A stretch of 64,000 nt of DNA, taken from assembly GCF_902170565.1 (NCBI RefSeq), contig NZ_CABHXX010000095.1, positions 248,001 through 312,000 on the forward strand, in the 5' to 3' direction. Below, piece by piece: positions 16,943-28,247 of the stretch (position 1 is the stretch's first letter; each line of letters begins with the position of its first letter). The notes under the pieces were generated by a model that did no database searches, was not told where the DNA came from, and was given only the letters and a program-made list of their open reading frames with translations. Source of the stretch: Yersinia thracica (GTDB lineage Bacteria > Pseudomonadota > Gammaproteobacteria > Enterobacterales > Enterobacteriaceae). Made by a program: the position numbers and the translations under genes.

Positions 16943-16992
16943 ATTTTACGTTGATTTTATTGAATTATTTATTTTCACTGTCCACATTGTGA

Positions 16993-17508
16993 CCTCCACT
17001 CAAAGATTGACCACCTTCAGATACAAAATTATTGGCGCACCGAGGCTGGATACGCTGCCAGTGGCAAACCAGAATGCCATTTTTGCCCGCGAATTGAAGG
17101 CGTTTGCTTATATCAGTGCCAACGGCGGCAAAACCATTGCGGAGGCCAAACTTTACCGCAAGAACTTTCTTCAGCGCGAAGTGATGGTGATTTACCCCCG
17201 ACTGGCTGGCCTATGACAGCGAGGCAAAAGCAACGTTGTGGTGCTGGCACCGGCTTATGCGTTGGGGTTCCCGCACCGGCGAGGAAGAGGTGTTTATTTT
17301 CGAAAGTTATACCCGCACTGCGCAGATCCTGATGGATACCATTGCGGAAGCCCATTTCTATTATATTGACAAGCCGTTAACGCCGTCACTGGCGAAAGAT
17401 GTTATCGACAGCATCAACCGCAAATTGTCGGCCTATGTTACCGCACCTCCGGCAGCAGAGGGGCTGGTAGTGATATCACTGGGTAAAAAATTATTTTATT
17501 ACAGATAG
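16993..17508 (+). pseudogene. Phage P2-type tail sheath (FI) remnant
   Basis: Two reading frames carry pieces of a contractile-tail sheath protein. The first has the LDT...ELKAFAYISANGGKTIAEA and YRKNFLQRE segments; the second continues [16 protein letters not shown], then [30 protein letters not shown] and [14 protein letters not shown]. These correspond to consecutive parts of P2 gpFI, with a frameshift near 17190 and sequence missing between the blocks and near the C-terminus. No intact start. Non-functional. Confidence 0.75.
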
Positions 17509-17544: not shown

Positions 17545-17675
17545 CTACCTCTTTGGTAGGGGGACTAATCACCACCAAGAGACGCTAACCTCAGAGGGTG
17601 GTGAACTGGGCGGGGTTAGCGTAACCGGCTACCAAAGAACCCGGCGCATCTTGCGATGCCCCCACCCAGTTCACC
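17545..17675. ncRNA. Candidate structured RNA in the phage remnant
   Basis: Dense nested complementarity: an 11-bp perfect pair GGTGAACTGGG (17600-17610) / CCCAGTTCACC (17665-17675) extended by GGGG/CCCC; an inner hairpin GCATC-ttgc-GATGC (17646-17659); CCGG/CCGG (17625-17628, 17641-17644); an upstream hairpin CTACC-tcttt-GGTAG (17545-17559); and two alternative long-range pairs, TCTTTGGTAG/CTACCAAAGA (17550-17559, 17629-17638) and GCTAACC/GGTTAGC (17584-17590, 17614-17620). No open frame fits. A phage antisense RNA of the C4 type is one possibility, unverified. Confidence 0.45.
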
Positions 17676-18611
17676 GTTTCTTACATATTACCGGTGTCAC
17701 TGTGCCCGCACATAATAGCCGTGTCTACGGTTGTGCGCTTTGGTAAATTCCGGGACGCTAATCCCGACAGCGGATTTTGCCGCTGCGGCGTGACTATAGC
17801 CCAGCGAAGTTCTGCCATGCAATCAGCCAACATCGCCTGTTAAAAGTAGGGATTTAGTTAGCCACTTAATGACAAATTTGTGCCAGTTCTTTATCGCTCA
17901 GATCGGTCAACTTCATGACTTTAGTGCGGTCATAACCATCTGACCGTCGAATTAATAAGCGTTTCTTAGTCGGCGGTGTTTAGGTGGTCACCTTGATATT
18001 TCCGTCTCCATAGGTGTAATAGCTCGCATTTGAAATCCCTTGGACTTGTATTTATTCTGTTTTTTTGGCTCACAATAAATGCAAATGAAACTCGTCATAT
18101 CGGCAACCCCGCCGGGGTCTACCACCAACAGGGAGAAATGAGAGTGAAAAAGTGAGGGTAACTGAGCAGCATGAAAAATCATCGGTACTTTTATTGAAAA
18201 TAACATGGGCGGTTAACTGGCGATATTTCCCTCAAAAACGGAGTATTAATCACAAATATACTCTTTTCGATTGCAATCAATCATCTGCCTTTGCCATTGT
18301 AGCTTGCATTTTAGACAGGATGGCTTGCGCCTCTTGCCCTGCGCTTTTACTTGTTTTCTGATGGGAGGATGACCAGGAGAAGCAGCAGGAACACTTATAT
18401 TACACTTCAGTCATATTACTTAGTGTATCGCACAGGTTGCTCAGGTTCCTGCTTACAATTCCGCACAGGTATACTTTTTGATGGCAGCAGCTGGACGTTA
18501 AGTCAGGTGCCTGATGATTGAGGGATAAATTTGCGCCCTTGATTTTTGGCAGTCGAGGCGTAACCTATTAATTATAAAAAAGTTTACTTTTTTTGATGAG
18601 TACTTAATTAA
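17676..18611. other. Degenerate accessory DNA without an intact gene
   Basis: Low-coding stretch of 0.9 kb. A short minus-strand frame at 17866-17979 without a start codon ends in LTDLSDKELAQICH and looks like the tail of a lost gene. A 6-bp inverted repeat TACACT/AGTGTA lies near 18402-18427. The remainder shows nothing I can identify. Confidence 0.5.
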
Positions 18612-19142
18612 ATGGCTATTATACTAAATATATTTGACGATGGTTATATATTCCAAGACAACTTTTACAACAAACACTCAGAACAACCGACATTCACAAA
18701 TCGGCTTAATATTTCGGCTCATGGGACAAGGGATGGCGGTATCATTATTAATGGCAACCGATTCAATGCACACCAACTTTTGAGTTTTCTCAGGCAACGC
18801 GTTGTAAATATAAGCCAATATAACTACATAAGGCTAGCTTGTTGCTTCTCAGCTCATGGTGGAGAAAACTCTCTTGCATTTCTCTTATCTCAAATTATTC
18901 CATTTGCCTATATCAAGGGGTATATGGGTGGAGTTGATACTTTATGTCAACCAGACATTATTAACAGAGAGCTACACCAATATGGAATACATCAAGCGAG
19001 CATTTTTCTAACAAACGCTATGCTGATGGGGTCGTTTGTAGAAAAAAATCATCCCGAATTTCACTCGATAGTGTTCTTTAATGGATCATATAAGCATGAA
19101 AAAATATTTAATCTTTACGGGGAGGAAATTATTCATGAGTAA
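18612..19142 (+). CDS. Orphan protein with caspase-like (clan CD) His-Gly / Cys pattern
   Basis: 176-residue protein of unknown function, low in GC compared with its neighbours. It carries ISAHGTRDGG (His37-Gly38) and, 39 residues later, RLACCFSAHGG (Cys77/Cys78), each after a hydrophobic strand. This spacing resembles the catalytic dyad of caspase-fold peptidases such as C80 or CHAT domains, but that is inference from pattern alone. No signal peptide and only a weak ribosome-binding site (GATGAG) upstream. A small effector or toxin is possible; it could also be the surviving piece of a larger protein. Confidence 0.5.
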   Translation: MAIILNIFDDGYIFQDNFYNKHSEQPTFTNRLNISAHGTRDGGIIINGNRFNAHQLLSFLRQRVVNISQYNYIRLACCFSAHGGENSLAFLLSQIIPFAYIKGYMGGVDTLCQPDIINRELHQYGIHQASIFLTNAMLMGSFVEKNHPEFHSIVFFNGSYKHEKIFNLYGEEIIHE

Positions 19143-19262: not shown

Positions 19263-19544
19263 ATGGCCGCAAATGCTTTTGTTCGTGCTCGTATAGACGA
19301 AACCCTAAAAAATGAAGCCGCTGCTGTGCTTGCTGGCATGGGTTTAACCGTATCCGATCTGGTGCGGATAACCTTGACCAAAGTTGCCCGAGAAAAAGCG
19401 CTTCCGTTTGATTTGCGTATTCCTAACGAACTTACCGCTAAAACTATTGCCAACAGCGAGAAAGGTGTCGATGTCCATAAAGCAAAGGATGCTGATGATT
19501 TGCTTCGCTTCGAAAGGACAGGAAGCCATTCTGATCTATTCTAA
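19263..19544 (+). pseudogene. DinJ antitoxin fused in frame to the tail of a YafQ toxin (deletion remnant)
   Basis: The first 78 or so residues are a DinJ/RelB antitoxin: MAANAFVRARIDETLKNEAA, then GMGLTVSDLVRITLTKVA and the GVDVHKAKDADDL end. Instead of the usual short DinJ C-terminus the frame continues LLRFERTGSHSDLF and stops; that is the C-terminal motif of YafQ (E. coli has LLRFERTGTHAALFG). The body of the toxin gene is missing, so an internal deletion has joined antitoxin start to toxin end. A strong AAGGAGG site precedes the ATG, so the fusion may still be made. Confidence 0.75.
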
Positions 19545-20064
19545 AATTCCAGACTATCCGCATCATAATGATAGAGCGCTATCCATCCTGTCTGACTGGC
19601 GAGTTGATGGTTCATCCGCGCCGCCTTGGTATTACTAAGATCGAATAAATTTTCGCTGGCGAGGAGATATTGTGGATCGGTTTGCAGGGTGACTGCTGCT
19701 GTGTTGCTGACTTTAAAAATAATACGAATCAGTTGGGTACGACCACTGCCTTCCTGCATTTTCGGCTTAAGACTTGATGCAGTGCGCATCAGTAGCGCAA
19801 ATCATAGGGTGGCGGGCTAAATTTGATGTCCATAATAGCCAGCTCGGAAAAATCTTTTTCCATCTCAATAAATTGGTCGTCATTAGTAATGCCGAATTTA
19901 TTGATTAACCCCTGGCTGTTCAGATAGGTATAAGGATCTGGGCCGTCACCGTATTTATCGCTGTCTTTTTTTGTGATACCGGGCAATGGACGGGCGGGGT
20001 AATCCATCACGATAACGTGCAGGGTATAGCGGTATTCGAAAGCGGTGCGGCCGGATAATATCAT
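19541..20064 (-). pseudogene. Fic-family protein, frameshifted remnant
   Basis: Minus-strand pieces of a Fic/Doc adenylyltransferase. The upstream piece (20064-19789) has DKYGDGPDPYTYL, LINKFGITNDDQF and a PPPYDLRY end, typical of Fic N-terminal regions. The downstream piece (19789-19541), in another frame, has MQEGSGRTQLIR, a degraded version of the HPFxEGNGRT active-site loop. The middle of the domain and the catalytic His are lost. It runs convergent with the dinJ-yafQ remnant. Confidence 0.65.
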
Positions 20065-20143: not shown

Positions 20144-21058
20144 TTACGTGTTTTTAAACTTCCTGATGAGTAATCTCTGCCCCGGGAAATCGATCAGTAC
20201 GGCAAATTTGTTGAGGAAGTTATTGCCGATTAATCCATCAGTGTCCATTTGGTTGAATACCCCGTCTAGCAACACCGCATTAAAACTAATCTCTTTTGTA
20301 CCCATTTCGTTAAGTTGGAAATCTGATGCCACACAACCTTCCATTTCTATATCCCCGATCAATGTTTGGCAAGGGAGACTGACAACCGCAGATTCAAGCC
20401 GTTCTTTCCAAAATACAGATACAGTAGCCCCAGTATCTAAAACCATATTGTATTCTTTAGCATTTTTAGAAATTTTGAGTTCGATCCCTTCTGGCGTCAG
20501 CCGCAATGGTAATGCTATCCAACCATCAGCCATGTTAATGCCTAATGCTTGGGTATTATCCGCAACAGACAGAAGCTGGCTTTTATAGTTAATAAGTACC
20601 GCTTTTTCCTTGAATAAGTCCAAGCCCATGACCATCGAGTTACGGGGTGCTGTTTTCGGGGTGAGAGCCAGCCCCCAGGGACTGAATGTAACACCTTTAA
20701 CATTCTTAAATGTCATGCCATTGATCGAAAGTTGAGGGATATAAAACTTTTCATTGAAAAGCACTTTTCCTGCCAGATCGATAGAGCGGCGTTTTCCCTC
20801 AACGGGCACCAATCCTGGAAGTTGCGCCATAACTTCTTTGGTTAAATGCAGCCCCATTTCGGACCCCGTATCAATTGAAAATGATTGGCGTAAACCATTG
20901 ATTTCAACACTGACCACAGGTACTGCCGTATCATCCCACTCAAAAGGCATATGCATGACTTTTTCTGGTGCGATGGCGCTGAGTGCAGCCGGAGTGGCAA
21001 CAGAAGATAAGAGAACAAATGTCATCGCGGTAATGTGTTTATTAGGTAAAAAGTGCAT
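20144..21058 (-). CDS. Secreted two-DTG aspartyl protease of the RiPP cluster
   Basis: 304-residue protein with an N-terminal signal peptide (hydrophobic AMTFVLLSSVATPAALSA) and two retropepsin-like lobes: SIDTGSE (Asp63) with GLDLF downstream and VLDTGAT (Asp208) with IGNNFL downstream. That is the layout of a single-chain aspartyl protease acting in the periplasm or outside. ATG at 21058 is used because it begins the signal peptide; the gene overlaps the exporter gene by 17 bases, so it is the last gene of the xye operon. A role in trimming the exported peptide is inferred from context; self-protection is an alternative. Confidence 0.8.
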   Translation of the reverse strand: MHFLPNKHITAMTFVLLSSVATPAALSAIAPEKVMHMPFEWDDTAVPVVSVEINGLRQSFSIDTGSEMGLHLTKEVMAQLPGLVPVEGKRRSIDLAGKVLFNEKFYIPQLSINGMTFKNVKGVTFSPWGLALTPKTAPRNSMVMGLDLFKEKAVLINYKSQLLSVADNTQALGINMADGWIALPLRLTPEGIELKISKNAKEYNMVLDTGATVSVFWKERLESAVVSLPCQTLIGDIEMEGCVASDFQLNEMGTKEISFNAVLLDGVFNQMDTDGLIGNNFLNKFAVLIDFPGQRLLIRKFKNT

Positions 21059-23180
21059 AAGGACTTTCCTTTTCCATTTCAGAGTTCCTGCTGAGATCAA
21101 ACACCCGGTCCGCCATGGCAATCATTGTTGGGCGGTGGGCGACAAAAATTCGAGTTATTTTCAATGCGCGTATCGAATCATTAATTCGGGCTTCGTTATC
21201 GACATCCAGGTCACTGGTTGCTTCGTCAAGAAATAATATACGTGGGCGTTTGTACAAGGCGCGCGCCAAAGAAATACGCTGACGTTGCCCACCTGAAAGG
21301 GCATTCCCCATGTCACCGACCATGGTTTCGTACTTCATCGGCATGGTTTCAATTTCAGTATGAATTGAAGCAAGTCGGGCACATTCAAACACCCACTCAT
21401 ACTCAGGCTGTACATCAAATGAACTGATATTTTCAAGTAAAGACCCTGCAAACAGTTTGTCTTCCTGTAACACGTAGGCGATATGTTTGCGGTAGGTACC
21501 CAGGCCTAATTGCCGTATGTCTACGCCATCCAATAAAATAGAACCGCTTTTTGGTGGGGCTAAACCGCCCAGAGTTTTAAGAAGGGTCGATTTTCCACAG
21601 CCTGATGGCCCGACAATGGCAACACTTTCCCCCGCCTTGATAGACAGGCAAACATCTTCAAATACGGCTGGCTCGCCGTCCCCATAGCGATAACTCAGGC
21701 CTTTAACTTCAATACTGCCCGCAAAGAGGCCAGGCGTGACCAAATCTGCCCCGTCGGTATCTGTATCCTGTTCAGGTGTGGCAAGTGCGACTTCTGAAAG
21801 GCGTTCACTGTGCATATCAATCAAGCGGAGTTTGGTAATCGAGTCAATGACGCGGATGGTGCGAGTGACATACATGTCCGAGTAAATCAAGAACGCAAAC
21901 AGCATACCTGTGGTGAGGGGGCCTTCATCAATTAGCTTTGCCCCCAGCCATAATGTTATTGCGGAAGACAGCCCGATTAACAGCAAGCCCACCGTCTGTG
22001 TTGCCAGGTCTATTTTAAACAGGTAGATTTTTGCATTAGCTTCATTGATAACCAGATTGAGCCAATCAGTACGCCGACGTTCTGCCAAATTGAAAATTTT
22101 GACGCACGCGATGCCGCGCACTGTTTCGAGGAAATGTGACTGTTGCTTTGCCTCATGGGCAATCGCCTCCAAATTGGCGGAACGATAGGCGCTGAAAAGA
22201 AAAAATTTGATAACAGCATAGATAATGGATATCAACACGGCGATTGCCGCCAGATGGCCATTGTAAGCCCACATCAAAAATAACAAACCAATGACCACCA
22301 CAATATCCAACAGCGACGCAACCATATCGGCGGTAAATGCATCCTGTACTACTGACAGTGAGTTAAAGCGCGACCTGACATCGCCGACATGACGCTTTTC
22401 GAAGTAGGAAACAGGCAAGCGGATTAAATGACTAAAAAGTCCAGAATTCCATTGAATACCCAATGTGTATTTAACTGACATAACCGTCCAGGCGCGAATT
22501 ATGCTGAGCAAAGCGCGAAAGATTAATAAGGCAATAATTCCCCAGGTTATCAGTGATACAAAATTGATATCGCCGGATCTTAATGCCATGTCGACGGTGA
22601 ATTGAGCAGCCATCGGAACGGTCAGAGCAAGAAGTTCGATACACAATGAGAGGGCCAATATATGCGCTAAAGCACGTGACAGGCCGGATACGTTTTTGAA
22701 CATATCCAGCAGGCGGATGGTCTTTTTTTCAGTCCGACGTTGGAAATGCTGATTAGGCCAAATTTCCAGTGCGATGCCGGTAAAGTGTTGAGATAACTCA
22801 GTCAGAGAGATTTTTCTCTCACCTCTGGCTGGATCAATAATAGTGGCCCCGTGGCGAGAAAACTTCTTTAGTACCACAAAATGGTTAAACGACCAGTGTA
22901 GGATACACGGTGTTTTGAGTTGTCGGGCTGCATCTAAATCGGCTTGAACAGGACGTGACCCCAAGGATAAGCGATCTGCCAGCTCAATAAGATTGCGTAG
23001 ACTCATGCCTTTCAGAGACACTTGATAATGTTTACGCAGCGCCTGGAGATCTATATTAAGGCCATAATAACCCGCAATCATTGCTATGCATGCCAACCCA
23101 CACTCCGTTGCCTCTGTTTGCATCACCACGGGTAGGCGCTGTCGAAGAGCCTCAAAGTAACCTTTCATGGCAATTATCAT
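21042..23180 (-). CDS. Peptidase-containing ABC exporter (C39 type)
   Basis: 712-residue bacteriocin-type exporter that cleaves double-glycine leaders while exporting the peptide. The N-terminal C39 peptidase has QTEATECGLAC (Cys27), FNHFVV (His100) and IIDPARG (Asp116), so it looks active. A six-helix membrane domain (about 155-440) follows, then the ATPase with GPSGCGKST, LSGGQRQR and ILFLDEATSDLD. The start at 23180 overlaps the hlyD stop as ATGA, which indicates coupling. Partner of the adjacent HlyD-type adaptor. Confidence 0.93.
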   Translation of the reverse strand: MIIAMKGYFEALRQRLPVVMQTEATECGLACIAMIAGYYGLNIDLQALRKHYQVSLKGMSLRNLIELADRLSLGSRPVQADLDAARQLKTPCILHWSFNHFVVLKKFSRHGATIIDPARGERKISLTELSQHFTGIALEIWPNQHFQRRTEKKTIRLLDMFKNVSGLSRALAHILALSLCIELLALTVPMAAQFTVDMALRSGDINFVSLITWGIIALLIFRALLSIIRAWTVMSVKYTLGIQWNSGLFSHLIRLPVSYFEKRHVGDVRSRFNSLSVVQDAFTADMVASLLDIVVVIGLLFLMWAYNGHLAAIAVLISIIYAVIKFFLFSAYRSANLEAIAHEAKQQSHFLETVRGIACVKIFNLAERRRTDWLNLVINEANAKIYLFKIDLATQTVGLLLIGLSSAITLWLGAKLIDEGPLTTGMLFAFLIYSDMYVTRTIRVIDSITKLRLIDMHSERLSEVALATPEQDTDTDGADLVTPGLFAGSIEVKGLSYRYGDGEPAVFEDVCLSIKAGESVAIVGPSGCGKSTLLKTLGGLAPPKSGSILLDGVDIRQLGLGTYRKHIAYVLQEDKLFAGSLLENISSFDVQPEYEWVFECARLASIHTEIETMPMKYETMVGDMGNALSGGQRQRISLARALYKRPRILFLDEATSDLDVDNEARINDSIRALKITRIFVAHRPTMIAMADRVFDLSRNSEMEKESPYALFT

Positions 23181-24460
23181 GCGGCTTCTCCAGAGTGACC
23201 TTGAACCCTGTGACGAGCACTTTTGAGGGGCAAAAGAAGCCATTCATAGAGCGGCCGTTTTCTAATGAAAACATCTGTTTTAACACCGATCCCTGGCCGC
23301 AAAGGGTAAGTTTCCCCCGCCATCACTACCCTGTTGTTTTTGGGGCTGATGCGTACTTGAAAATAGTGTCGTGGGGACTGCTGGGCTTGCTCGCCATCCC
23401 TGCTTAAGTGCTGTTTGACTGAGGTGGTGGATATTGATCTGACAATGCCGTCATATTGACCAAACCATTGGTAGGGATAGGCGTCGAACCGTAATCTTAC
23501 GGTCTGGCCTTCACGCAACTCGCCGATGGCGTCAGCGGTGGCGAAGATTTCCACTTCAGCTTGCCCTGATGTTGGCACAACACTGGCTAACTCCTGGGTT
23601 GCTCGAATAGTGTTGCCGGTTAATCCTGTAATGCCGGTTAACCGGCCTTCGATCGGAGACGTTATTTGCAACTCCCGCTGCTCTTCAGTAGAAACTAAAT
23701 CCAGATCCAAGCGTGCAGTTTGACGGCGTAGATTCTCCAGCGAAGCATCAAGTTCAGTTTGGATTGCTGCTAGTCGTGCTTTTATGTTGACGGTTTCTCC
23801 TTGCAACTTTACCTTTTCGCGCTGATAGGTCTTGAATTGAACGGAGGCACTGTAGTATTCAGAACGACGGCCCATATATTCCGTTTCAAGGGCAATTCCT
23901 TGGCGAACCAATTCTTTGAAATGCTGTGCTTTTTCCAATAGCCACGATGTTTGTTGTGCAGATTTGCCAATCAAATCATCCATTTTTTGCTGCTCGGCTT
24001 CCTTATTTTTCAAACTTAAAAGGAGAAAGTTTCGCTCGATATCTGCTGCCGCAGATTTGAGTTTTGTCTCCCGTTCAATGGCCGTTTTCTGCGATTTTAG
24101 CGCTGCTGCTTTCTCATCACTTGTTCTGCCAAACTCTGTCTGCGTTTCCATATTGACGATATAAATCACGTCGCCCGCGCGAACGGTTTTCCCTTCTTCA
24201 GCCAGACTGCGGACAATAACGCCATCCCGTGGGGCGGTTATTCGTGCCACGGCAGGGTGATGGACAACAGACCCCGTGAGATGGGTTTTTTGGGTGTAAG
24301 TCCCCATCACCAGGAATGCTATCAAGCAGGCAATAAGCGCCAGAGCAAGTATTGCCCAAATAGAAGCGCCTATTGGGATATTGACTTGTGGATTACCCAG
24401 CCAGTGATGTGCTTTGTGCTCTATCGCTTCCTGTCTGAAAATCGCAGATTTATTGATCAA
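23177..24460 (-). CDS. HlyD-family membrane fusion protein
   Basis: Periplasmic adaptor that links the C39 exporter to an outer-membrane channel. One membrane segment near residues 30-52 (AILALALIACLIAFLVMG), a lipoyl/barrel half (ITAPRDGVIVRSL), a long coiled coil (about 130-270) and the second half with TSPIEGRLTGITG and LRFDAYPYQWFGQYDG. Start is TTG at 24460, with GGGAG nine bases upstream; no better in-frame start exists. 427 residues. No TolC-like gene is present, so a chromosomal TolC is presumably shared. Confidence 0.9.
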   Translation of the reverse strand: MINKSAIFRQEAIEHKAHHWLGNPQVNIPIGASIWAILALALIACLIAFLVMGTYTQKTHLTGSVVHHPAVARITAPRDGVIVRSLAEEGKTVRAGDVIYIVNMETQTEFGRTSDEKAAALKSQKTAIERETKLKSAAADIERNFLLLSLKNKEAEQQKMDDLIGKSAQQTSWLLEKAQHFKELVRQGIALETEYMGRRSEYYSASVQFKTYQREKVKLQGETVNIKARLAAIQTELDASLENLRRQTARLDLDLVSTEEQRELQITSPIEGRLTGITGLTGNTIRATQELASVVPTSGQAEVEIFATADAIGELREGQTVRLRFDAYPYQWFGQYDGIVRSISTTSVKQHLSRDGEQAQQSPRHYFQVRISPKNNRVVMAGETYPLRPGIGVKTDVFIRKRPLYEWLLLPLKSARHRVQGHSGEAA

Positions 24461-24494
24461 TTTACAGGCGCTCCCTCACCATATGTTCCAAAAC

Positions 24495-25679
24495 TTATCG
24501 CCCAATTGCTGTCATAATGCGCTCTTCCTTGATGCCCATATTGAGTAGGTGTGCAGCGGCGCGGCTGAGGAAACTTCTCATGGAATAGCAATAAACAGAC
24601 TTGCGGTCGAAGCGGGTTTCAGGTGAAAAACGATTCATAATACGACCTCCAGCACAGACGTTTTCCCAAATGCAACCGTTGCATTCATGGGGCAGAGCTT
24701 GGCCGACTGACGCGTACTCCTGGAACTGAGGGCTATTAAGTGCATCAGTTAGGCTGATTTCAGAAACATGACCAATGGGATTGAAAATTCTGTCTGATGT
24801 GGCGCGTAAGGTATCATCCACACGAATAAAACCATCTGAACCCACGGTGAATGCGTATGCCCCAGTGGCGCTGGGTGAATGCCCTAAAATTCCTTGATGC
24901 TTTGTACCGAGCAAATGAGCTAAGTGTGTTTGAAAAAGGCGGACAAAAATATTAGGGTTGCTGTCCTTGAACCATTCATCCAAAGCTTCATTTAGGAAGC
25001 GGCTAATACCAACAGGGTCAATATTAGTGTCATGATAACAATCGTCTGGCACCAGAAAATCAAAACCATAAACCTTTAATTCGTCCACAAAATGACGATA
25101 TATCTCAGCACCATTTGCTTGAGCATTCGCGACACATAAAACCCCCGGTGCCGATGGAATACGGCCTTGCTTATGAGCATGTTGGAGTATACGCAAACCA
25201 CGCACTGTCGCCTCGTAAGTGCTACGCCCTTTGGTATCTAAACGATGCCTGTCATTAATATGTTTCGGGCCATCAATAGAAATACTTGCGTTCACAGAAT
25301 ATTTTTCAAATAGTGATATCCATTCTTCATCAATAAGTGTGCCGTTAGTTTGCAATGCGAATCTGATATTAGTCTTCGAGTATCTTCCTGTCAGTAATCG
25401 CTCACACATTTTGGCGAAGTTTTCTTTTTTCATCAATAACGGTTCCCCCCCATGGAAATCAATTTGTAGGGTACCGATTTTATATTCCCGACATGCTGTG
25501 TGAAGAAATTCAGCTAAGTCATTAATGTTTCTATCTGACAATCTGGCGGGGCTGTTATTAGCCGCCGGATTACCTTTATTGAATACATAGCAATAATCAC
25601 AATTAATATTACAGCGTTCGCTTATTTTTAATATTATTTCAAGGTGTTGGATGCTTTGAATGTTTAATTGATTGACCAT
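24495..25679 (-). CDS. xyeB: Radical SAM/SPASM peptide maturase, XyeB family
   Basis: 394-residue radical SAM enzyme. The SAM-cluster motif CNINCDYC (Cys23, Cys27, Cys30) lies near the N-terminus and the C-terminal SPASM domain has CNGCIWENVC (Cys333, 336, 342) and Cys364 for auxiliary clusters. Enzymes of the XyeB family join an aromatic ring carbon to the beta carbon of the residue two positions later, making three-residue cyclophanes. ATG at 25679 with GGAGT upstream is preferred over an upstream in-frame start that overlaps xyeA. It lies 83 bases after xyeA, separated by a hairpin. Confidence 0.92.
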   Translation of the reverse strand: MVNQLNIQSIQHLEIILKISERCNINCDYCYVFNKGNPAANNSPARLSDRNINDLAEFLHTACREYKIGTLQIDFHGGEPLLMKKENFAKMCERLLTGRYSKTNIRFALQTNGTLIDEEWISLFEKYSVNASISIDGPKHINDRHRLDTKGRSTYEATVRGLRILQHAHKQGRIPSAPGVLCVANAQANGAEIYRHFVDELKVYGFDFLVPDDCYHDTNIDPVGISRFLNEALDEWFKDSNPNIFVRLFQTHLAHLLGTKHQGILGHSPSATGAYAFTVGSDGFIRVDDTLRATSDRIFNPIGHVSEISLTDALNSPQFQEYASVGQALPHECNGCIWENVCAGGRIMNRFSPETRFDRKSVYCYSMRSFLSRAAAHLLNMGIKEERIMTAIGR

Positions 25680-25733
25680 AACTTTGCACTCCTTTCCAGA
25701 TGATAAATCTCTGGATTTTTGCGGGCCTGAGTA

Positions 25734-25754
25734 AGGGCCGCCATAAGCGGCCCT
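25734..25754 (-). promoter_or_regulatory. Hairpin between xyeA and xyeB
   Basis: Perfect 8-bp GC-rich stem AGGGCCGC / GCGGCCCT with a 5-base loop, 8 bases after the xyeA stop. In the transcript it is followed by a short A-rich stretch, not a T run, so it looks like an mRNA-stability or attenuation element rather than a full terminator. It would favour more precursor than enzyme. Confidence 0.6.
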
Positions 25755-25762
25755 CGGTGAGA

Positions 25763-25918
25763 TTAAAAACTTTTTGGCCAGTTTACAAAAGCATTCACCC
25801 AACCGCCTGCTATCTTGTCGAGAATACTGTCTGCAAGATGCTGAGGTTGACTCTTTTTAGTATTACAAATGTTAATGACTGTCTTAGTTTCATTGATTTC
25901 TTTTTGTAAGCGAGACAT
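25763..25918 (-). CDS. xyeA: RiPP precursor peptide, XyeA family
   Basis: 51-codon gene. The leader (residues 1-39) begins MSRLQKEINE and ends LDKIAGG, a double-glycine site suited to the C39 exporter in the same operon. The 12-residue core WVNAFVNWPKSF contains three aromatic-x-N/K motifs, WVN, FVN and WPK, the substrates of XyeB-type cyclophane formation. GGAGG lies 8-12 bases before the ATG. The single leader Cys18 has no obvious role. The family (Xenorhabdus, Yersinia, Erwinia) is known; the product of this copy is predicted, not demonstrated. Confidence 0.93.
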   Translation of the reverse strand: MSRLQKEINETKTVINICNTKKSQPQHLADSILDKIAGGWVNAFVNWPKSF

Positions 25919-26102
25919 AGTTTATTCCTCCATTGATTACGAGTGCCAATAGATGAATGATTGGCAGTCCATTAAGGAAAGCATTTTTAACCAGTCTTGT
26001 TCCTGAGTTATGAAAATAAATCAACCATATAAATTTAATATTGTGATTAAATGTAGTAACCCACTCTCTTACTTTCCTTGCAAGAGAAATATCATTTTGC
26101 AC
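25890..26102 (-). CDS. Doubtful 70-codon frame overlapping the xyeA start
   Basis: MQNDISLARKVREWVTTFNH begins at 26102 with GGAG ten bases upstream and ends inside xyeA in another frame (29-base overlap). It has a hydrophobic stretch (LPIIHLLALVI) but no recognised similarity. It may be a translated leader for xyeA or simply an open frame in AT-rich DNA. Confidence 0.2.
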   Translation of the reverse strand: MQNDISLARKVREWVTTFNHNIKFIWLIYFHNSGTRLVKNAFLNGLPIIHLLALVINGGINYVSLTKRNQ

Positions 26103-26307
26103 GGTTCTCCGTCAAGAAATAATAATTATTTATTTTCCTCGCTTAATGGAAGTGGTTAAATAACGTTGTTAAATGATGAAGTTAATTATAGATGTTAATA
26201 TGAGCTGATATTTTTATATTTAATTTAAATTAAATATCCATATAAAAGAAACTCACTGCCTTTTATTTAATTAATGTTTATTTTGAATGAATTCTGGTTA
26301 TTCACCA
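25919..26307 (-). promoter_or_regulatory. AT-rich region upstream of the xye operon
   Basis: 389 bases between the sgrR-like stop and xyeA, strongly AT-rich, the likely promoter region of the five-gene operon. On the minus strand TTGACG with GATATT 16 bases later (near 26112-26085) is a weak promoter candidate. AT-richness is the usual setting for H-NS silencing (inference). Apart from the doubtful 25890-26102 frame I see no gene. Confidence 0.45.
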
Positions 26308-28098
26308 TTATTCCGGTTCCAGCCAGGTTGTTTGAAAATCAAACCAACCCAGATTATTGAGGTGTGCACCTTGGGCGTGTTCGGGGGCTTTTAGGCGCAT
26401 CCAGTGGTGGAATAAAGGTTGTAACCAACCCCCGGCTATCACCTCCCTGATTAGCTGCTCGCTGCTAAGGGTTTGGTTGCGCCAATCATGCAGATAAGCT
26501 TGTAAACTTGCTTCGTCACCACCAGTAATAGATTGGCGCAGCAGCGGGGAGCCCAATAACCATGCGCCAACATTCCATTCTTCGGGAACCGCAAAGTTTA
26601 CTGTGCCTAGCCATAAATCGACATTGGCCTCGCCCTTGGCCCAAGTGATGTAATCCAGCTGTATGACGGCCAATTTAATCCCTTGAGCGGCCAGAATATG
26701 AGTCATTTCAGTGACCAGCATCGCGTATTCTGGGTGCTGAGCATGATAAGCCAGAGTTAGCACCGGCCTATCCTCTGATTCTACCGCGCTGTCAATGGGG
26801 AACGGAGGGCACTCATCCCCTGAATCTATGCCGTGAAACCAGGTGGGTAAGACACTGGTAGCGGGTACCCAGAAGGGGCGAATGGGCTCAATTAGGCGTT
26901 GGATGAGATGATAAGGATTAAGCGTTTTTCGCAACCAGCGGCGCTGTTTAATGCTGTGCCAGTGCGGTGAGCGGCTGTCACACAGCAAAAAATATCCGCC
27001 GCGCTCCAGAAACATTTCTTGCGTTGAGTCTGAGGGTTTACCGGTCAGGCTGGCGGCAGAGCCAGATACATAGTCAATATCACTGATACTGGAGCTTAAC
27101 CAGGTGGCACTTTGGATATTTGCCATGCTCAATTGCTCTGATAGCACAGCGGGCGTGCCGGAGGGCGGGCGGGCTAAATCCGGGAAGATAAGCACTTCAA
27201 CTTCATCCAGCAGGCCACGAAAACCAAAATAGTGGTCAAAGGATTTCATCTGCAAGTGCCAGTCACCATTTTCAGCCACTCGGTAAGGCCCGGTTCCCAC
27301 CGGGTGAGAAGCAAAATCCGGCTGTGCGGCATGATTTTCCGGCAAAATCAGGGCGCTGTGATGGGCCAGTAGCTGGGGAAAGCGGGGATCCGGCTGATTA
27401 AGTTCAATCACCACACTGAGTGGCCCGTGCTGACTCACTTTTTGAATATGCGAAAACAGCGGTAAAGTTGCACAGCGGGTTAATGAACTGACCACATCAC
27501 GGCTGGAAAGCTCTCGACCATCATGGAATTGCACCGCTGGACGTAAATAAAAACGCCAGTGTAATGGGTCGAGCATCCGCCATTTGTGGGCTAAATCGGT
27601 TGTGACCTCGCCGTCTTCCTCTTTTATCCGTGTCAGTCCGTTAAAAATTTGTCGGACTAAGTGCAATTCAGAGCGGCGTAAGGGCGTACCGGGGTAAAGA
27701 TTTGACATAGTGCGGTAGTAGGGGATGCGCAGGGCTTGATAGTCATCGCGTATCCGATACCCTAACTTGGCCCGCAGCAGTGGGGTAATCAGCTGTTTAT
27801 CTTCCCCTAATAAGGCAATGGCTTCATTAAAACCGCCGGAATCCAATAACTGTTCCGCTTTTTCAATTAAAAGTTGATGAGTATTCCGCAATAGTTGCAA
27901 ATGTGACCGGCGGCCACGACCCGCTTCTGCTTGCCATATTAGCCAGCCTGCTTGTTGCATTTGAACCAGTAATGTCCGCATATGGCGCTTGGTGCAGCTA
28001 AGTTTATCCGCGAGTTCTTGCAGTGTAATCTCAACCGGTTGTATCCCAACCTGATTGAGTAATCGCAAATATTGTTGTTCAAGGCGGCGGCTGGTCAT
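26308..28098 (-). CDS. SgrR-family transcriptional regulator with solute-binding domain
   Basis: 596-residue protein resembling E. coli SgrR along its length: an N-terminal winged helix (LQELADKLSCTKRHMRTLLVQMQQAGWLIWQ split over residues 29-60), an AEAGRGRRS link, and a C-terminal family-5 solute-binding domain (RRSELHLVRQIFNGLTRI, LHWRFYLRPAVQFHDGRE, HPVGTGPYRV, NNLGWFDFQT). Such proteins sense a small molecule and regulate transcription. ATG at 28098 aligns with the SgrR start; a TTG 24 bases upstream is possible. Divergent from the AroE-like gene, its likely target. No SgrS RNA is seen in the 149-base gap. Confidence 0.85.
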   Translation of the reverse strand: MTSRRLEQQYLRLLNQVGIQPVEITLQELADKLSCTKRHMRTLLVQMQQAGWLIWQAEAGRGRRSHLQLLRNTHQLLIEKAEQLLDSGGFNEAIALLGEDKQLITPLLRAKLGYRIRDDYQALRIPYYRTMSNLYPGTPLRRSELHLVRQIFNGLTRIKEEDGEVTTDLAHKWRMLDPLHWRFYLRPAVQFHDGRELSSRDVVSSLTRCATLPLFSHIQKVSQHGPLSVVIELNQPDPRFPQLLAHHSALILPENHAAQPDFASHPVGTGPYRVAENGDWHLQMKSFDHYFGFRGLLDEVEVLIFPDLARPPSGTPAVLSEQLSMANIQSATWLSSSISDIDYVSGSAASLTGKPSDSTQEMFLERGGYFLLCDSRSPHWHSIKQRRWLRKTLNPYHLIQRLIEPIRPFWVPATSVLPTWFHGIDSGDECPPFPIDSAVESEDRPVLTLAYHAQHPEYAMLVTEMTHILAAQGIKLAVIQLDYITWAKGEANVDLWLGTVNFAVPEEWNVGAWLLGSPLLRQSITGGDEASLQAYLHDWRNQTLSSEQLIREVIAGGWLQPLFHHWMRLKAPEHAQGAHLNNLGWFDFQTTWLEPE

Positions 28099-28247
28099 AA
28101 AAGAGGAACCTAATTGAGTCAAACTCAGCAGTTTTATATCTCATCTTTTTAGCCGATAATTTTCTCTACAGCAAGCATTTGTGTCCCCAGCACTTTTTAT
28201 CAGGACGGGGCCACAGATAAAGCGCCAGGATTATTTGAGGTAAGAAA

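Follow-up and report, generated by a model that had tools for sequence, protein, structure and literature searches.

What does a compact run of five minus-strand genes in Yersinia thracica make, how did it come to lie where it does, and how would a producing cell withstand its product? We addressed these questions in a 64,000-nt stretch of the genome (contig NZ_CABHXX010000095.1, positions 248,001-312,000), called the window below, from an assembly of 4.31 Mb in 140 contigs (coded G000). A sequence-only reading had described five close or overlapping genes on the minus strand, and all five reading frames proved intact and tightly packed from 25918 to 20144. The first is xyeA (25763-25918), a 51-codon precursor gene with an ATG start and, as that reading had noted, GGAGG shortly upstream. 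It is followed by xyeB (24495-25679; ATG start, 394 aa), encoding a radical SAM/SPASM cyclophane-forming maturase, and by genes for an HlyD-family periplasmic adaptor (23177-24460; 427 aa, TTG start assumed), a C39 peptidase-ABC exporter, or PCAT (21042-23180; 712 aa), and a two-lobed pepsin-like aspartyl protease with a signal-peptide-like start (20144-21058; 304 aa). The adaptor and exporter genes overlap by 4 bases and the exporter and protease genes by 17 bases. Compared with six relatives, the four long genes had dN/dS ratios of 0.05-0.18 (rough values, with dS mostly above 1), and by these ratios the operon genes appear to be under purifying selection.

Searched against the XyeA and XyeB families, as the same reading had proposed, the 51- and 394-residue proteins both scored above the curated NCBIfam cut-offs. 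XyeA reached 90.3 bits with TIGR04495 (cut-off 33) and covered 50 of 50 profile positions, while XyeB reached 723.8 bits with TIGR04496 (cut-off 450) over profile positions 1-383 of 385. The CxxxCxxC motif and SPASM cysteines claimed for the maturase are present as C23-C27-C30 and as C333, C336, C342 and C364; the match to the Pfam SPASM model was 17.6, below the cut-off of 21.5, and that to the profile of the darobactin maturase DarE was 75.6 bits against a cut-off of 650. Pfam domain matches backed the adaptor, C39 exporter and aspartyl protease identities. The adaptor matched PF13437 above cut-off (E 2.5e-18) and TIGR01843 at E 2e-35, yet under the curated cut-off. The exporter has PF03412 (Peptidase_C39, E 5e-39), PF00664 and PF00005, all above cut-off, which is the domain set of a PCAT; it matches PCAT1 (4ry2) at E 6e-91, and the Cys, His and Asp of an intact C39 triad can be read in it, as had been claimed. 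The protease matched Pfam Asp_protease_2, a retropepsin-like family (E 2e-13), and has a pepsin-like predicted fold whose two lobes each carry a catalytic D-T-G, with both Asp kept (D63, D208). It shares the two-lobed fold and the two catalytic Asp with pepsin-type aspartyl proteases and with 9iy9, a putative Bacteroides fragilis endopeptidase, but is only 10-16% identical to them.

The window operon has in common with known XyeA/XyeB RiPPs (xenorceptides, triceptides, XncA/XncB) the precursor and maturase families, a GG leader, aromatic-X-X motifs, an adaptor and a C39 exporter; those systems usually include an aspartyl protease too, and the same five gene types occur in Photorhabdus, Xenorhabdus, Serratia and Sodalis loci. 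It is an XYE-type (xenorceptide, triceptide class) RiPP operon and no new kind of system; its interest lies in an apparent allele swap and in the question of self-protection. The operons of Photorhabdus heterorhabditis and P. australis (L023, L024) have the same order as the window, A-B-HlyD-ABC-protease, with identities of 73% for XyeB, 79% for ABC and 56-57% for the protease, but their cores differ (WVNAYARWTKRF and WVNAYARWTNRF) and the fetched loci, unlike the window, had no sgrR, ptsG or hinT match. In Xenorhabdus, Serratia and Sodalis the order is instead A-B-protease-HlyD-ABC (X. griffiniae differs again, with the protease last), and their HlyD is only 24-34% identical to that of the window. 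The XyeB tree left out G007, S. rubidaea and Martelella, where the pieces are short. Three XyeB relatives (L031-L033) have short upstream precursors with no blast match to XyeA, ending in GWVRASWTKSF (Providencia, L033), TWFKLDWKKSF (X. griffiniae, L032) and GWVNSFAKWCLRF (MAG, L031).

The XyeA leader ends in ..ILDKIAGG and is followed by a predicted core of 12 residues, WVNAFVNWPKSF, with the motifs WVN, FVN and WPK, giving a GG leader and an aromatic-X-X core (..IAGG / WVNAFVNWPKSF). Residues I, L and L stand at -4, -7 and -12 before the core, and these positions are hydrophobic in all 15 precursors tabulated; they are the leader positions marked for C39 exporters in the part of PMC10885120 available to us. 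The exact core is new among the copies compared, the nearest listed core being that of Xenorhabdus sp. BG5 (WVNAFANWSKSF), and Pro inside the third motif is found in the window only and is absent from 20 other precursor copies (21 compared, some broken). XncB, the described enzyme of the group, is reported to bond Trp C6 with the C-beta of Arg or Asn, and Phe C4 with the C-beta of Asn, and Lys is not among the acceptors named for it in the available part of the source (PMC11002830). Because the mid-motif Pro is unique among the copies and Lys is not named as an XncB acceptor, the W-P-K ring may stay open.

In the pathway that we propose, XyeA would be made with a 39-residue leader, and XyeB would join an aromatic ring carbon to the beta-carbon two residues on, forming up to three 3-residue cyclophanes, predicted at W1-N3, F5-N7 and W8-K10. 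The [M+H]+ calculated for the core is 1494.753, falling to 1492.737, 1490.722 and 1488.706 for one, two and three cyclophanes. The C39-ABC exporter would cut behind Gly-Gly and carry the core peptide out of the cell, working with the HlyD adaptor and presumably also TolC. The pepsin-like protease would most likely trim or clear the peptide or its leader, probably in the periplasm.

The spacer between xyeA and xyeB (25680-25762, minus strand) contains a stem-loop, AGGGCCGC-TTATG-GCGGCCCT, with a fold of -29.2 kcal/mol. A hairpin was predicted in all 14 of the xyeA-xyeB spacers folded (selected copies), whose sequences are unlike; z values against mononucleotide shuffles ran from -1.6 to -7.1, so that some are weak. 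Going by these fold predictions, the stem-loop is perhaps a partial terminator or an mRNA stabiliser, and the spacer hairpin may leave the precursor message more abundant than that of the maturase. A candidate operon promoter (26088-26115, minus strand; TTGACG, 16 bases, GATATT) matched at 9 of 12 in a scan that gave 22 matches for the region overall versus 22.5 in shuffles, which is no excess; TTGAC upstream of xyeA is invariant in 8 of 8 aligned Yersinia copies. An open reading frame ahead of xyeA (25890-26102, 70 aa) was considered as a sixth gene and rejected, as it has stops in G016, G002, G007, G024 and G005; only the window, G020 and G013 have the frame open, and its GTG falls within the promoter-like stretch.

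Among 25 Yersinia genomes, 9 have XyeA; in a sample of 394 genomes from the order (its own included), 4 gave a match at E <= 0.001, 3 of them above the cut-off. No near plasmid copy was found in the plasmid collection, where the best match was Xenorhabdus bovienii at 52.6%. The operon is whole in five Yersinia genomes (the window, G002, G005, G016 and G024) and broken in four. In G020 a frameshift interrupts xyeA and the other genes are open; in G007 the start of xyeA is disturbed, both xyeB and the adaptor gene are broken and the exporter gene is cut; G013 has a stop in xyeA and has lost most of the stretch from xyeB to ABC; and G001 has lost most of xyeB, the adaptor gene and the start of the exporter gene.

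The sequence-only reading had placed the operon between ptsG and hinT; the direct upstream neighbour is not hinT but a paralogue of sgrR (26308-28122). Of the 25 Yersinia genomes, 17 carry this paralogue at full length, and all 25 have another sgrR copy, 50-52% identical over residues 5-318. The paralogue precedes the operon in 8 of the 9 carriers (only the sgrR end is left in G005), and ptsG lies within a few kb of the other operon end in 7 of the 9, being about 33 kb off in G002. In G001 no sgrR, aroE-like, hinT or ptsG match was found within 7.7 kb before xyeA (L063). Seven genomes (G003, G006, G008, G010, G011, G015 and G019) have an empty site, where about 65-115 bases lacking any operon gene separate sgrR from ptsG. 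The gap widens to about 400 bases in G021 and, in G014, to about 1.1 kb that include a Fic-like fragment; hinT comes next after ptsG in G009 and G022, and the two are separated in G012 by a remnant of the aroE-like gene. This survey left out G017, G018 and G023, and in G004 the site is split over contigs.

A decayed prophage remnant sits between the window operon and ptsG. Beside ptsG are two phage tail sheath fragments (16989-17508; PHROG 23), decayed prophage remnants. The minus strand at 17594-17799 matched C4 antisense RNA, its targets a1/b1, and isrK, probably the remnant of a P4/P1-like immunity region. A 176-residue protein (18612-19142) has no NCBIfam or PHROG match and a sub-threshold Pfam match, a DinJ/RelB-type antitoxin gene lies at 19263-19544, and a mixed remnant at 19789-20064 gave a weak phage tail-terminator match and then one to Fic that was also weak, at E 0.005 and under the cut-off; similar pieces lie near ptsG in G014 and G016. 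No tRNA was found in the window.

How the operon came to this site was suggested by comparing identities inside and outside it. Between the window and G020, sgrR is 93.1% identical, ptsG 96.9% and an unlinked 5.3-kb bamA locus 98.3%, while inside the operon the values are 73.8% for xyeB, 79.4% for HlyD, 84.6% for ABC and 75.3% for the protease; the drop occurs at the sgrR end. Between G020 and G007, sgrR, ptsG and the bamA locus are 85.8%, 93.1% and 94.2% identical, and xyeB, HlyD, ABC and the protease 90.7%, 88.9%, 90.2% and 85.9% (G007 is part-deleted and some spans are short). In five-row trees, each with full support, the flanks pair the window with G020 and the operon pairs G020 with G007 (100/100); at the bamA locus, too, the window adjoins G020, along with G013, apart from G023. 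By AU tests, the flanks reject G020 with G007 (p-AU 4e-5) and the operon rejects the window with G020 (p-AU 7e-6; ABC alone 0.0025), in tests that were chosen after the identities were known and in which two of the five rows, G020 and G007, are decaying operons. Because the two groupings conflict, they point to allelic replacement, and the simplest reading of these comparisons is that a divergent, working operon reached the window lineage from a distant relative, and that decaying ones persisted in the lineage's close relatives. The resident operon would have been swapped for the divergent allele via the conserved sgrR and ptsG flanks.

We consider it unlikely that the operon was instead inherited vertically and evolved fast in the window lineage with no replacement. 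The operon genes do generally diverge more than the flanks, and the window ABC is still nearest those of G020 and G007 (84.6% and 82.8%, versus 78-80% for others), but it is the topology that differs and not rate alone, the loss of identity is located at the sgrR end, and dS between the window and G020 is 2.2 for xyeB versus 0.8 for ABC. The protease of G020 and G013 is also less alike (85.6%) than their bamA locus (97.0%), so allelic exchange may have occurred more than once.

The product is probably an antibiotic against rival Gram-negative bacteria. It would most likely enter the lateral gate of BamA in such rivals, mimicking the C-terminal beta-signal, and blockade of BamA would stop outer-membrane protein assembly. 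We infer BamA inhibition as the best mechanism because the core tail is like that of darobactin and because xenorceptide A2 is reported, in the available part of a review, to be a BamA inhibitor (PMC12971899); this is an extrapolation from one relative, and the review's reference for the A2 statement, in the part available, looks wrong. The window tail WPKSF resembles the darobactin tail WNWSKSF, and 16 of 21 family cores end, like darobactin, in aromatic-x-[K/R]-x-F; the terminal Phe of the darobactin W-S-K-S-F end is said to matter in the available part of PMC8694152. The tail of P. heterorhabditis SF41 XyeA is WTKRF (L023), and the same part of PMC8694152 prints darobactin B of P. heterorhabditis VMG as WNWTKRF. 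This likeness may reflect convergence on one target, BamA, or, since the tails vary little, it may be chance.

Darobactin (DarA/DarE) is also radical SAM cross-linked and active against Gram-negative bacteria, with a W-x-K-x-F core end, but it belongs to different precursor and maturase families, has an ether and a C-C link, and has leaders that end ITA, not GG, as printed in the available part of the source. DarE was above cut-off in 14 of the 25 Yersinia genomes. In the window genome the C-terminal part of DarE lies at a contig end (C42, 6216-6836; L179) and no darobactin precursor match was found, so this genome may have lost its darobactin cluster, or the assembly may have divided it. In G020 and G013 the darobactin precursors are 94% matches to a published Y. 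enterocolitica one, and the window species, which lies beside these two at the bamA locus, probably belongs near that group; the precursor of G023 equals a Y. pseudotuberculosis one.

Each of the 25 Yersinia genomes, the window genome included, has one BamA above the family cut-off. None of the darobactin-resistance changes listed in the available part of PMC10135246, at G429, T434, E435, G443, Q445, A705 and G807 (E. coli numbering, counted on an alignment), was found in any of the 25. Position 394, the eighth on the list, is Tyr, not Phe, in all of them, operon carriers and non-carriers alike, columns 675, 679 and 680 are private to the window, and no BamA column marks the operon carriers. 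That last result, together with the unusual W-P-K motif, would also fit a triceptide with a target other than BamA, such as a signal, a metal-binding peptide or a narrow bacteriocin-like peptide acting on another receptor. We regard this as rather improbable given the report on xenorceptide A2 and the darobactin-like ends of most family cores.

With BamA as the proposed target, a producer BamA that lacks the listed resistance residues leaves self-protection unexplained, and immunity must lie elsewhere, in export, in the protease or in low natural sensitivity. The aspartyl protease might itself be the immunity factor, destroying peptide that re-enters the periplasm: it has the signal-peptide-like N-terminus, predicted fold and catalytic Asp for such a role, leader removal is already provided for by the C39 protease of the exporter, and the producer BamA looks ordinary. 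Trimming or leader clearance would fit equally well, however, and the XyeB loci of Vibrio sagamiensis (L028) and MAG L039 gave no aspartyl protease, so that its presence next to XyeB is not universal. Literature searches for XncE, XyeE or 3-CyFE, or for aspartyl protease with RiPP terms, turned up, among the papers listed, nothing on the protease and no precedent for such a role. An immunity role is a tentative idea, to which we give a minor share of our confidence. A broader reading, in which the Yersinia XYE locus is an antibiotic exchange cassette, lost by decay and regained when homologous replacement across sgrR and ptsG brings in a working operon whose core differs, with the protease as the immunity factor for a sensitive-looking BamA, we hold to be doubtful.

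The account that we favor, and consider likely as a whole, is an XYE cyclophane operon with a BamA-targeting peptide, a periplasmic trimming or clearing protease, and allelic replacement. BamA inhibitors are sought as Gram-negative antibiotics, and the operon adds one natural core with an uncommon Pro in a cyclophane motif. Two further questions become open to testing: what lets producers survive when their BamA is ordinary, and whether such operons are swapped like alleles among related Yersinia.
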